Assembly (NCBI GenBank): GCA_016870715.1
Contig: VGAL01000012.1
Span: forward strand, 1 to 32,897
Source: Actinomycetota bacterium
Lineage (GTDB): Bacteria > Actinomycetota > Actinomycetes > Nanopelagicales > Nanopelagicaceae
Reading direction: 5' to 3'
Length of the DNA stretch: 32,897 nt
Every line of letters starts with the position of its first letter. The first letter of the stretch is position 1. The notes under the pieces are model-generated. The model searched no databases, was not told the DNA's origin, and saw only the letters and a program-made list of their open reading frames with translations. Of this stretch, positions 1,390 through 24,229 are shown piece by piece. Made by a program: the position numbers and the translations under genes.

Positions 1390-1395
1390 AGCCTA
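1390..1395 (-). promoter_or_regulatory. Candidate -10 box for leaderless gatC transcript
   Basis: The hexamer TAGGCT fits the actinobacterial -10 pattern TANNNT. It is followed by 7 nt (TTGCGGT) and then the gatC ATG, so transcription would begin at or next to the start codon. Its first three bases are the TAG stop of proA. No convincing -35 element was seen. The same hexamer at the same distance precedes proA, the serine hydrolase gene and (at 6 nt) ndk, which is what raises it above chance. Confidence 0.5.
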
Positions 1396-2646
1396 CCTGC
1401 GAATCTGGCCCGTTCCGGTCACGATCCAGGTGGTGGTAGTCATCTCCTCAAGCCCCATCGGGCCGCGCGCGTGCGTCTTTTGATTCGAGATTCCAATTTC
1501 TGCACCAAAACCCATCTCCTCGCCATCAGTAAACCGAGTTGATGCATTGATCATGATGGCAGCCGCGTCCATTTGATTGATGAAATTCTCAATCGTCTCT
1601 GGATTTTCAGAGATGATAGCTTCGGTGTGATTGGTTCCATATTTGCGAATATGTGCTGCGGCCTGATTCACATCATCCACTACTCGAATGTTGATCTCGA
1701 GTACGCCATATTCGGTTGACCAGTTCTCCTCTTGAGCAAGGGTGGCATCAATCCCAAGACTTTGGGCGATTGCCAGAGATTGGGAGTCTGCATGAATCCG
1801 AACTTTCTCTCTATCGAGCGCCTCAAGTGCTGTTGGCAGGAATGTGTCGGACACATCTTTATGAACAAGAAGCGTTTCGGCAGCGTTACATACGCTTGGA
1901 CGTTGACACTTAGCATTAATTAATATCGGTAACGCTTTAGCTAAATCTCCATCCTTATCAACATACACATGGCAGACGCCAGCACCAGTCTCGATTGTCG
2001 GAACTTTCGCCTCATCGACGACAGTGCGGATCAGAGCGGCGCTTCCTCGAGGGATGACAAGATCAACTAAGCCACGAGCATGTAGCAGCTCTGTGACGCT
2101 TGAACGATTTGCTGAGGAGACGAGTTGAATCACATCTGCTGGCAATCCAACGCTTGATACTGCATCACGCATAATAGAAACGAGAATCTCATTTGATTGT
2201 GCTGCACTGGATGATCCACGAAGCAACGCACAGTTGCCAGATTTCAAAAGAATCACAGCAGCGTCAACGGTGACATTGGGTCGCGCTTCATAGACCATTC
2301 CCACCACACCAAAAGGAACAGCCACCTGTTTTAAATGGAGACCGTTCTCTAGTGTTCGCTCTCTTTTGATTACTCCCACCGGATCGGGCAGGGCTTTAAT
2401 CTTCCGCGCACCACCTGCGATACCGGCAATTCGAGCGGGATTAAGCGTTAGGCGATCGATAAGTGATTCCGAAATTCCTTCACCACGCGAACGGAGAACA
2501 TCCTCGTTATTAGCGGCGAGAATCTCATCTTGTCGCTCCAAGAGCGCGGCAGCAATTGCTTCGATTGCGCTATCTTTTTGAGCACGCGACGCATGCGCTA
2601 ACACGAGCCCAGCAGCGCGTGCAGCTTTCGAAAGCGGCTCAATCAT
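1393..2646 (-). CDS. proA: Glutamate-5-semialdehyde dehydrogenase (gamma-glutamyl phosphate reductase)
   Basis: ProA reduces gamma-glutamyl phosphate with NADPH to glutamate semialdehyde, the second step of proline synthesis. The 417-aa product has the aldehyde-dehydrogenase fold; the catalytic cysteine is in RPSVCNA (about residue 253), with the conserved stretches [17 protein letters not shown] and [11 protein letters not shown]. The ATG at 2646 is chosen because a TAGGCT box sits 7 nt upstream and no Shine-Dalgarno is visible. A TTG at 2664 would add six residues but lies upstream of that box. Its partner gene proB is about 1.2 kb upstream, separated by an oppositely oriented hydrolase gene, so proA seems to have its own promoter. 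gatC and gatA follow directly. Confidence 0.97.
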
Positions 2647-2653
2647 GGCTGAC

Positions 2654-2682
2654 AGCCTAACCAATCAGCGCTCGGATAGGCT
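2654..2682. promoter_or_regulatory. Head-to-head candidate promoters for proA and the serine hydrolase
   Basis: An inverted pair of hexamers, AGCCTA at 2654-2659 and TAGGCT at 2677-2682, is separated by 17 bp. Read outward on each strand, each is TAGGCT followed by exactly 7 nt and an ATG (proA at 2646 on minus, hydrolase at 2690 on plus). Each hexamer therefore falls where the -35 element of the opposite promoter would be. Neither start codon has a Shine-Dalgarno, so both genes are probably leaderless and cannot easily be transcribed from both boxes at once. The arrangement is seen in the sequence; promoter activity is inferred. Confidence 0.55.
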
Positions 2683-2689
2683 TACTAAT

Positions 2690-3841
2690 ATGTTCCTTCT
2701 CCGCTGGTTGCGCCGTGTGCTCCTCTTTACTCTTGCGCTCTACTTACTTCTCTTTAGCTTCACGAGGCTGATTCACTATCCAGAGCCAATAGCCGCAGCC
2801 CGGTTGGGTTTTGCCCCTGCCCATGCCACACCGAAATTGATGCCAGCCCACTACATTCCACCATCTGATAACCCGCGGGTATGGAACAACGCACAAGAAT
2901 CGCTACCTGAAAAGGTTTCCTTCAAGGGAAATGAGATTGCTTTTCAGGACTTCTTAGATCAGAGCGCAGCTAATGCATTTATCGTTCTGCGTAACGGTGT
3001 CATGAGTTACGAGTGGTACAAAAAAGGATTTGATGAGAAATTCCTCTTTCCTTCCTATTCGGTCTCCAAAACTTTAACCTCCATCATGATTGGGCAACTT
3101 ATTGAGGATGGAAAGATAAAAGAAAGCGACAAGTTCGTTGATTTCTTCCCAGAGTTCAAGAACGAGAGCTCTTTCGACGAGGTAACAATCAACCAGCTTC
3201 TCGATATGCGCTCTGGCGTGGGAGTCTCCGAAAATTACCCATCCGGGCCTAGCGGTTGGGGCGTAGCAATCGCGCAAATGTATGCATCGACTGATTTGCA
3301 CTGGTTTCTTGGAAGCAACCGCAAGATGGCATTTGAACCAGGTTCGGACGCTGAATATCGAAGCGTGGACACGATGTTACTGGGAATGATTATTAAGAAG
3401 GTGACTGGAGAGCGAGTAGCAGATTACTTCGCTCGAGAGATCTGGCAACCCATCGGCGCTCAATATGGCGCTACGTGGAATGTCGATCGGCTCGATGGTC
3501 AGGAGAAGGCCTTCTGTTGTTTCAATGCCGCCGCTCGAGATTATGCATTGGTTGGTCAATTGATTCTTGATAATGGAGTTACATCGGGAACTCAAATCAT
3601 CCCATCGCTCTGGAATAACAGATTAGCCACTCCAGTTGTGACTCTAGATCGGAATTGGGGCTACGGTGCGCAGATTTGGCATCCCTATCCAAATACGCTG
3701 ATGCTGTTGGGCTTACATGGCCAACATGTTCTGGTGGTCCCAGAGAGTAAAACTGTTATCGTTAAATTGAGCGATGATTTAGATAGCGAAAATGAAGGTC
3801 CAGTCACCAAAGTTCTCTATGACCTCGCGTTACGGAGATAG
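2690..3841 (+). CDS. Membrane-anchored serine hydrolase, beta-lactamase class C family
   Basis: This 383-aa protein belongs to the beta-lactamase/esterase/6-aminohexanoate-dimer-hydrolase family. The N-terminus (RWLRRVLLFTLALYLLLFSF) is one hydrophobic segment, either a membrane anchor or an uncleaved signal, so the enzyme domain probably faces outside. The catalytic SxxK motif is SVSK (Ser124, Lys127), preceded by a NylB-like strand FIVLRNGVMSYEWY. A family tyrosine lies in EYRS (about Tyr223), and a C-terminal HGQHVLVVP strand replaces the usual KTG-like element. The start at 2690 is preferred over ATG 2645 because it begins at the anchor and has TAGGCT 7 nt upstream. The gene is convergent with proB (29-bp gap) and divergent from proA. 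The substrate cannot be read from the sequence; esters, amides or peptidoglycan peptides are possible. Confidence 0.85.
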   Translation: MFLLRWLRRVLLFTLALYLLLFSFTRLIHYPEPIAAARLGFAPAHATPKLMPAHYIPPSDNPRVWNNAQESLPEKVSFKGNEIAFQDFLDQSAANAFIVLRNGVMSYEWYKKGFDEKFLFPSYSVSKTLTSIMIGQLIEDGKIKESDKFVDFFPEFKNESSFDEVTINQLLDMRSGVGVSENYPSGPSGWGVAIAQMYASTDLHWFLGSNRKMAFEPGSDAEYRSVDTMLLGMIIKKVTGERVADYFAREIWQPIGAQYGATWNVDRLDGQEKAFCCFNAAARDYALVGQLILDNGVTSGTQIIPSLWNNRLATPVVTLDRNWGYGAQIWHPYPNTLMLLGLHGQHVLVVPESKTVIVKLSDDLDSENEGPVTKVLYDLALRR

Positions 3842-3870: not shown

Positions 3871-4983
3871 TTAAATTAGAGTTAGATCATCGCGATGGAC
3901 AAGTTCGCGCTCATATTCGGCGCCAAAGGTCGCTGCGAGCTCCTTCGTGCTTTTGCCAAGTAATTGTGGAATCTCATCGCTATCAAATGCCACCAAACCG
4001 CGAGCAATTACTTTTTGCGAATTGTCTAATAAATCCACAACATCTCCAGCAGCAAAATCACCGGTTACCGAAGTAACACCTGCGGGCAACAACGATGTTC
4101 CTCGTTCCAAAATCGCCTTTGCTGCGCCCGGATCGAGGGTGAGTGAACCTTTAGGCATCGATGCATGAGCAATCCAGAGCGCCCGTGAAGGTGCGCGATG
4201 GGAGCCAGCATGGAAAATCGTGCCCACTTCCTCGCCATCTACTGCACCTTGAACATTGGCTAGAGAGGTGAGTACCACTGCAATCCCAGCGCTCGTAGCA
4301 ATTCGAGCAGCCTCAACTTTCGTTGCCATGCCTCCACTGCCAACTCCAGAATTTCCAGCGCCACCAAACTCTGCGCTATTGAGCGCAGCGAAATCGGAGA
4401 CTTCAGGAATTCGCTTAGCATCTGGAGATGATGGCGGCGCGTCGTAGAGCGCATCAATATCAGAGAGCAACACCAGAAGATCTGCCTGCACTAAGTGCGA
4501 GACTAATGCAGCCAAGCGATCGTTATCACCGAAGCGAATCTCCGAAGTTCCAACCGTGTCATTCTCGTTGATTACTGGAACGACTCCGAGCGCAAGTAGG
4601 CGATCGAGCGTACGTTGCGCATTTCGGTAATGGCTACGACGAACGATATCTTCGCTAGTGAGCAAGACCTGAGATGCAGTAATCGAATGGCGCGCAAATG
4701 ATTCGGTGTAGCGGTGCATCAATAACCCTTGACCTACCGATGCTGCTGCTTGTTGAAGCTCAAGTTCTTTAGGGCGAGATTTCAAACCCAACGCTGCTAG
4801 CCCAGCCGCAATCGCTCCTGAGGTGACCACTAATACATCAAGACCACGCGCTTTCGCACTCGCAACTGCATCTACTAATCGATCTACTGCTGCGCTATCA
4901 AGACCAGACCCTGCAGCACCTGTAAGTGATGAAGAACCAACTTTGACGACGATTCGCTTCGCACGGCTCACTTCACTGCGCAT
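3871..4983 (-). CDS. proB: Glutamate 5-kinase
   Basis: ProB phosphorylates glutamate with ATP to gamma-glutamyl phosphate, the first and feedback-inhibited step of proline synthesis. The 370-aa product has an amino-acid-kinase domain ([13 protein letters not shown] near the start, [42 protein letters not shown]) followed by a C-terminal PUA domain (about residues 275-365), the standard architecture. The ATG at 4983 overlaps the end of obgE by 11 nt, with a GGAG/GAGG stretch just before it. An ATG at 5001 would add six residues but reaches further into obgE. Coupling to obgE implies co-transcription with the GTPase gene. It is convergent with the plus-strand hydrolase. Confidence 0.96.
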
Positions 4984-6391
4984 CGTCCTCACTCCAATCA
5001 TCCTCTGAGGCGCTATTTTTATGTAAGCCTAACTGCACACTCTCTACTCGGACATCGTGTCCGCGACGAGTATGGAAGTGCTCGACGCCGGCTTCGATTG
5101 TGGGCTCCCACTCAAAGCGGGTGGCATCCTCCCCATCGCCAATCATCACTTCACATCCAGGCTCAGCGCCAAGTTTGAAGAGCTCCTTCTCCACACCTAG
5201 TCGCGCTAGGCGATCTGCCAGATATCCAACCGCTTCCTCATTACTGAAATTGGTCTGGCGAACCCAACGCTCTGGCTTCTCGCCAGTAACAACAAAGCGA
5301 CCATTCTTCTCTTTGCGCACGGCAAAACCGAGGTCATCGACAGCCTTTGGACGCAAGACAATTCGAGGCGCTTCGACGCTCTCTTCAGGCTTGCGATTGA
5401 TGAGGGAGGCCATTGCATACAGTAATTCGGTAATCCCTTCTCGGGTAGCCGCAGAGATTGGATAGACCTCGAGACCTCGAGCTCGTAGATTCTCGCTCAC
5501 CATCTCAGCCATGGCGCGTCCATCAGGTAAATCAATCTTGTTCAACGCAACGATTCGCGGACGATCGTCTAGCCCCCCATAGGCTTCAAGTTCCCGTTCG
5601 ATGACTTCAAAATCATGAATGGGATCTCGATCGCTTTCGAGCGTGCCGCAATCAAGAACATGTACTAGCGCTGAGCAGCGCTCAACGTGGCGTAAGAATT
5701 CAAGGCCAAGGCCTTTTCCTTCGCTCGCCCCTGGAATCAATCCGGGAACATCGGCAACAGTAAATCGATGGTCACCAATGTCGACCACGCCAAGATTTGG
5801 GACCAATGTAGTAAATGGATACTCAGCAATCTTGGGTCGCGCTGCTGAGATTGCCGCAATTAACGAAGACTTACCGGCAGATGGGTAACCCACCAAGGCG
5901 ATATCTGCAACGCTCTTGAGTTCAAGGGTTAATTCAATCTTTTCGCCAGGTTCGCCCAATAGGGCAAAACCCGGTGCGCGACGCCTGGACGATGCCAGCG
6001 CTGCATTTCCCAATCCCCCAGCGCCACCGCGAGCAACAACAAAGCGAGTACCTACTCCGAGTAGGTCGGCGATGATATTTCCATGTGAATCACGGAGCAC
6101 AGTTCCTTCAGGAACCGGCAGCGTTAGATCTTCTCCTTGTGGACCATCTTTATGTCCACCTTGACCATGGCGACCTGAGGTTGCCGTGCGATGTGGACTG
6201 TAATGAAAATCAAGGAGTGTGGTGACGCTTGGATCGACAACGAGGATGACATCTCCGCCCCGACCACCATTGCCACCATCTGGCCCACCTAATGGTTTGA
6301 ATTTTTCGCGATGCACCGAGACGCAACCGTTACCGCCACTTCCTGCCTGGGCAAGGAGTCGAGCTTGATCGATGAAGGTAATTGCTGACAT
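4973..6391 (-). CDS. obgE: GTPase Obg (ribosome assembly)
   Basis: Obg is an essential GTPase that binds the 50S subunit late in assembly and links growth to nucleotide levels. The 472-aa product has the glycine-rich Obg fold (residues 1 to about 158, with GGDGG-like turns), then the G domain with G1 GYPSAGKSS, switch [10 protein letters not shown] and G4 NKID. A C-terminal OCT domain (about 345-425) is typical of Gram-positive Obg, followed by an acidic tail ending [12 protein letters not shown] Shine-Dalgarno-like AGGAAGAGGTG precedes the ATG. A terminator hairpin separates it from rpmA upstream, so it either uses read-through or a nearby promoter. Its 3' end overlaps proB. Confidence 0.97.
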
Positions 6392-23973: not shown

Positions 23974-24026
23974 TTTATTTCCGGTTGATCCAAACTCTCT
24001 TGGGGTGTGGCACTACTACTGACTTG

Positions 24027-24099
24027 TCGGGGCGAGAGGATTCGAACCTCCGGTCTCCTGGTCCCAAACCAGGCGCGCTAGCCACTACGCTACGCCCCG
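24027..24099 (-). tRNA. tRNA-Pro (UGG)
   Basis: A 73-nt cloverleaf reads on the minus strand. The acceptor stem is CGGGGCG/CGCCCCG with discriminator A. The anticodon stem CCTGG/CCAGG holds loop TTTGGGA, so the anticodon is UGG. The T arm is GGAGG-TTCGAAT-CCTCT. The 3' CCA is not encoded (CAA follows). It lies 67 nt upstream of tig in the same direction. Confidence 0.97.
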
Positions 24100-24113
24100 T
24101 TGATGAAGGCAGT

Positions 24114-24119
24114 AGTCTA
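24114..24119 (-). promoter_or_regulatory. Candidate -10 box of tRNA-Pro
   Basis: TAGACT lies 14 nt before the tRNA-Pro 5' end, with a weak TTATCG 18 bp further upstream. The same TAGACT hexamer precedes the methyltransferase gene at 27548. Confidence 0.4.
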
Positions 24120-24155
24120 GGGCCTGAAGTCGCATCGCGATAACGCGCCAAAAAC

Positions 24156-24229
24156 GCGGGTGTAGCTCAATGGTAGAGTTCTAGCCTTCCAAGCTAGCTG
24201 TGCCGGTTCGATCCCGGTCACCCGCTCCA
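24156..24229 (+). tRNA. tRNA-Gly (UCC)
   Basis: A 71-nt cloverleaf plus encoded CCA. The acceptor stem is GCGGGTG/CACCCGC with discriminator T, usual for tRNA-Gly. The anticodon stem CTAGC/GCTAG holds loop CTTCCAA, so the anticodon is UCC. The T-arm core is CCGG-TTCGATC-CCGG. CCA follows at 24227-24229, unlike the neighbouring tRNA-Pro. It is divergent from tRNA-Pro with 56 bp between them. No terminator was seen before the M81 gene, which ends at 24251 on the other strand. Confidence 0.97.

Follow-up and report, generated by a model that had tools for sequence, protein, structure and literature searches.

The window analysed here is the whole stretch of 32,897 nucleotides of contig VGAL01000012.1 from a freshwater actinobacterium of the family Nanopelagicaceae. 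It raises the question of whether proA and a serine hydrolase gene, transcribed away from each other, are tied together by the placement of their promoters. The initial annotation of the stretch pointed to mirror-image -10 boxes, each in the -35 position of the other, and proposed that the polymerase bound at one box would close the other promoter; such an exclusive choice, if true, would be a regulator-free link between two unrelated genes. From the comparison with relatives, it appears quite likely that the junction carries two separate, -10-only leaderless promoters placed back to back with little coupling, and that the 17-bp distance between them is inherited and is not a -35 arrangement.

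Architecture of the junction

The gene order in the window is obgE-proB on the minus strand, the hydrolase gene on the plus strand, and proA on the minus strand (the names proB and obgE are our assignments from sequence); proB is the upstream neighbour of proA, and the inverted hydrolase gene separates the two (Table 1). The nearest homologues of proA, from 86% identity downwards, belong to Nanopelagicaceae and acI Actinobacteria, with IMCC26077, assigned to acI-C1 in the excerpt of PMC5301498 cited here, as the closest named one. The hydrolase protein combines a hydrophobic N-terminus with the PF00144 domain, and the solved structures nearest to it by sequence are mostly 6-aminohexanoate-dimer hydrolases, so that the wall-facing role ascribed to it initially is unproven.

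Table 1. Positions of the features at the proA/hydrolase junction of the window, and examples of shared-TA elements
Feature	Position	Strand	Remarks
proA, glutamate-5-semialdehyde dehydrogenase	1393..2646	minus	start codon 2646-2644 (ATG, read as CAT at 2644-2646)
Predicted proA -10 box TAGGCT (AGCCTA on plus)	2654..2659	minus	TANNNT before proA in 44/44 paired loci
17-bp spacer between boxes	2660..2676	no strand	length exact in 5/5 genus genomes, sequence variable
Predicted hydrolase -10 box TAGGCT	2677..2682	plus	TANNNT in 44/45 loci
Serine hydrolase gene, beta-lactamase-fold, PF00144	2690..3841	plus	start codon 2690-2692 (ATG)
proB	3871..5001	minus	ORF; homologue adjoins proA in hydrolase-less relatives
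Shared-TA element examples	L106:14550-14559; L130:12493-12517		G001 sample

The pattern AGCCTA-N17-TAGGCT at 2654-2682, with TAGGCT followed by 7 nt and an ATG on each strand, is read directly from the window as first described, and a Shine-Dalgarno is absent from both 7-nt stretches before the ATGs. The window has a single copy of the exact pattern, and 100 shuffles have none; the 1.41-Mb genome has it in two places, with 0 for the reversed control. The geometry is more than chance, as TANNNT on both sides and the 17-bp distance are kept in 5/5 genus genomes although the spacers, taken in pairs, differ at up to 12 sites. No match was found at the junction in a scan for the sigma-70 consensus, as is expected for a TANNNT promoter. 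The leaderless signal of Actinobacteria, in the portions of PMC3160421 and PMC3898074 cited here, places TANNNT some 12 bp before the start codon, without a -35 motif. In an 800-kb sample of the genus genome G001, with a crude gene caller of our own, TANNNT was enriched 6-9 nt before the called starts (at 6 nt, 8.7% vs 0.2% of internal ATGs), and this start-associated TANNNT is the signal described for Actinobacteria. The promoters at the junction share with those described there the same box, the lack of a -35 element and the predicted lack of a leader, and no difference in kind is seen from the cited portions; here, two of them face away from each other with 17 bp between the boxes. A literature search on acI promoters gave nothing relevant among the papers listed.

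Conservation of the boxes and of the gene order

The survey of gene order covered 61 genomes of the family, each at least 90% complete, a strong hydrolase match being one with E of at most 1e-60. Such a match was found in 37 of the 61 genomes, in 30 of which, as paired by reading two tables, the hydrolase gene and proA diverge at a distance of up to about 100 bp. Seven genomes depart from this: G053 and G024, with the two genes on different contigs and the G024 hydrolase a stop-containing fragment; G016, G012 and G018, in which proA was not found; and G027 and G007, in which hydrolase and proA are 1.3 kb apart with what we take, from its sequence alone, to be an amidohydrolase-like gene between them in the direction of the hydrolase. 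On a proA tree of 97 rows, made by a quick method and with two long rows meeting, presence and absence of the hydrolase require at least 15 changes, starred branches forcing 9 of these (seven rows with too little upstream sequence were left uncounted). Six of seven outgroup rows have proB at 461-2274 nt from the proA match; no proB turned up in the seventh, L077.

The loci with the hydrolase divergent from proA number 45, i.e., 44 relatives and the window, and TANNNT stands 5-8 nt before both starts in 44 of them, the window included; L064 is the sole one without the hydrolase-side box. This count is somewhat lenient by design, as the scan accepted any candidate start with TANNNT 5-9 nt from it. 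Of the 44 proA boxes, 35 read TAGGCT, and the hydrolase boxes come in 13 different forms, every one TANNNT. Within the genus of the window, TANNNT is kept on both sides in 5/5 genomes, four of which have TAGGCT on both and the fifth, G001, TACGCT on one. The starts at 2646 and 2690 also fit the relatives; the prediction of two leaderless promoters is thus borne out at the level of sequence, and both promoters look real and old.

Either partner may be missing. In 36 family rows without the hydrolase (covered loci were scanned, L144-L156 being judged by eye), proA follows straight after proB without a box in 31, and the proA box is kept in five (L027, L029, L045, L145 and L147). In L027 and L147, the proA -10 box begins with the TAG stop codon of proB, and the retained box likewise lies at a stop codon in L029; L045 has another gene in between, and in L145 both boxes still stand 8 bp apart beside a five-residue hydrolase stub. 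On the other side, the complete genome G016 has neither proB nor proA beside the hydrolase and no proA elsewhere; the hydrolase, whose divergent neighbour is now gatC, keeps TAGGCT 6 nt upstream but has no mirror box. In G012, proBA is absent beside the hydrolase and no TANNNT was seen at the usual distance, and the hydrolase of G053 lies behind two codirectional ABC permease-like genes and has no such box. Each promoter can, on these sequences, persist without the other. The same divergent pair, predicted to be leaderless, is traceable through dozens of acI genomes with either partner sometimes missing, which suggests that the two promoters may evolve separately.

Some of these loci merit a separate remark. 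Between obgE and gatC of L137 (G016) and L139 (G012), proB and proA are missing and the inserted hydrolase remains; as no proA was found elsewhere in G016 and G012, proline auxotrophy is predicted. At L142:4540-4680 (G018), apparently only the first and last proA codons remain, beside an amidohydrolase-hydrolase pair, which is either a large internal deletion or an assembly fault.

Distance between the boxes and the -35 region

The alignment of the interval in relatives, proposed initially as a check on both boxes and their 17-bp distance, upheld the former (44/45 loci) and confined the latter to the genus. Across 44 loci, the distance between boxes is 17 bp in five, 8 bp in 34, 9 bp in three and 7 bp in two; all five 17-bp loci belong to the genus of the window, whose 5/5 genomes have it exactly, and the 9-bp loci L004, L005 and L070 group with this genus in the proA tree with support 88. 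The position of a -10 box in the -35 region of the other gene is, therefore, a trait of the clade. The 17-bp spacers within the genus share, pair by pair, 5 to 16 of 17 bases. Four changes of spacer length are needed on the proA tree. For 3 length changes among the 7-, 8- and 9-bp loci, parsimony counts 53 substitutions in the 8-bp spacers, a proportion not clearly below neutral indel rates, and the spacer length is thus not clearly constrained, mild constraint being compatible with this comparison.

Supply of the -35 element by the -10 box of the other gene was considered and rejected, as the 148 leaderless sites of G001 gave no -35 signal and the distance is not conserved beyond the genus. 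At these sites, the signal was at most 0.09 bits at any position from 45 to 1 before the box; TTG occurred 17 and 18 bp before it 7 times each vs 2.3 by chance, slightly above, and the mirror hexamer ANNNTA at 17 bp 4 times vs about 2.3 expected. As AGCCTA is not TTG-like and is unlike TTGACA, the box in the -35 region of the other gene has no visible role, and the importance attached to the 17-bp position finds no support, the distance being 7, 8 or 9 bp in 39/44 loci. A -35 meaning should not be read from a 17-bp distance where promoters show no -35 element. The 17-bp TANNNT pattern with 7-nt distances was found in just 4/61 family genomes (three at the proA junction and one elsewhere, in G013; control 1), so the geometry has no wide distribution. 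With 8 bp and 6-nt distances, the pattern gave 19 places vs 2 in the control; by our own comparison with the gene-order table, 10 of these are the proA junction.

Coupling of the two promoters and alternative explanations

The boxes, their spacing and conservation, and the variety of gene order, all directly observed, would be accommodated by two separate housekeeping-sigma promoters of the -10-only TANNNT kind, back to back, each starting a leaderless mRNA presumably at the first base of its gene or adjacent to it, with 17 bp as the inherited state of the genus and not a working -35 arrangement. The boxes would be close because the inverted hydrolase separates proB from proA and the genome is small and densely packed, which leaves 43 bp between the start codons. 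Given the footprint size of the polymerase, overlap of the two sites would follow from the 17-bp distance, so that two polymerases presumably cannot initiate there together; at ordinary promoter strength, the coupling would probably be weak. Against this reading count the exact 17 bp in the genus and its recurrence at a second junction, nadE/panB, in 4/5 genus genomes.

A mutually exclusive switch, in which the polymerase at one -10 box occupies the other promoter and the geometry is kept for the inverse expression, is considered unlikely. The overlap of footprints expected from the geometry, the exact distance in 5/5 genus genomes and the divergent pairing held in 30/37 family genomes with the hydrolase would suit it, as would the competition at E. 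coli bidirectional promoters, which in the cited part of PMC12825309 appeared only once one direction was strengthened. However, in that same part, basal transcription was too weak for the polymerases to compete at all five E. coli promoters tested, and the divergent, leaderless pair prpD/Rv1129c of M. tuberculosis is induced together according to a figure legend of PMC3898074, a paper which, in the part cited, calls closely juxtaposed divergent promoters common in that species. The distance, moreover, varies between clades, and each box persists without the other gene; this survival of either promoter after loss of its partner counts against an obligate linked switch. Competition between the two promoters is possible, exclusivity being an assumption; neither it nor the inverse linkage proposed initially finds support, and the refuting cases named with that proposal do exist, in hydrolase-less relatives with the proA box lost (31/36) or kept (5/36). 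As nothing shows mutual switching-off, the arrangement is an ordinary compact one.

It is highly improbable that the hydrolase starts at the in-frame ATG at 2645, which would make the plus-strand box coding and have the reading frame preserve the 43-bp gap. In 5/5 genus genomes the frame stays open over the 15 extra codons, and this ATG arises from the C preceding the proA ATG (CATG being the same on both strands); however, only SLTN of the extra peptide, the complement of the proA box region, is common to all five, which makes 2690 the better start, the other extra codons change amino acids, no TANNNT lies 5-8 nt before 2645, and the box of relatives stands just before the equivalent of 2690. 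That AGCCTA-N17-TAGGCT is an operator for a dimeric regulator and not two -10 boxes is hardly credible, for all its perfect dyad and the same dyad at nadE/panB in the genus, as the half-sites of relatives vary, with only TA and the last T in common, and their distance to the starts holds at 5-8 nt whatever the spacing.

The two back-to-back promoters of the preferred reading may be compared with known systems, as far as the cited parts of the sources describe them. The bidirectional promoters of Warman and Grainger (PMC10268837; PMC12825309) likewise give divergent transcription from overlapping polymerase sites, as is expected here, but in them one -10 element is shared or overlapped, and the starts are 18, 10 or 23 bp apart; the proA/hydrolase pair is outside that class, its boxes being separate at 17 bp from each other and its predicted starts at 44 bp. 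Overlap of polymerase sites at divergent promoters is described also for lysG-lysE of M. tuberculosis (PMC5648196), where one lysE transcript is leaderless, and for EcoRV CR/M (PMC5333194), but in both one gene encodes a regulator, as neither proA nor the hydrolase gene does.

Second divergent pair and other elements

The second place of the exact pattern in the genome is also a divergent junction, that of genes which we take from sequence to be nadE and panB. AGCCTA-N17-TAGGCT stands there in 4/5 genus genomes, and the stretch was not found in G003. AGCCTA-N{0,30}-TAGGCT occurs in eight places of the five genus genomes, all with N17; with 31 spacings allowed, coincidence at 17 bp in both junctions is about 1 in 31. 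These mirror TAGGCT promoters 17 bp apart at two divergent pairs prompt the reading that the fixed geometry may be a recurring exclusive-choice promoter linking biosynthetic genes to their neighbours, which is regarded as very unlikely.

The panB leader contains a hairpin (L001:1539-1575, i.e., G000:C8:11108-11144; also L157, L158 and L162) with two conserved bulged A. The hairpin gave no match in Rfam at E up to 1, and a model built from the four sequences matches only those four genus genomes among 121 in the order. By its bulged A, it resembles the pan motif as presented in the cited part of PMC2864571.

In the G001 sample, 24 divergent pairs have TANNNT on both sides, and six of them share the TA of one 10-bp element, ANNNTANNNT, in a count that omitted overlaps of at least 7 bp and thus the 18-bp class of bidirectional promoters; its geometry works out as that of the 23-bp class. 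This shared-TA pattern with 6-nt distances occurs in 68 places of the 61 family genomes vs 22 in the control (sums made by hand). The A four bases before the box is present in 21 of 148 leaderless sites of G001 vs 16% of all TANNNT; as it is not enriched, the shared-TA class is read as sequence symmetry.

The Rfam search of the window returned only two tRNAs, and at 24026-24229 lie divergent genes for tRNA-Pro (TGG) and tRNA-Gly (TCC), 56 bp apart.
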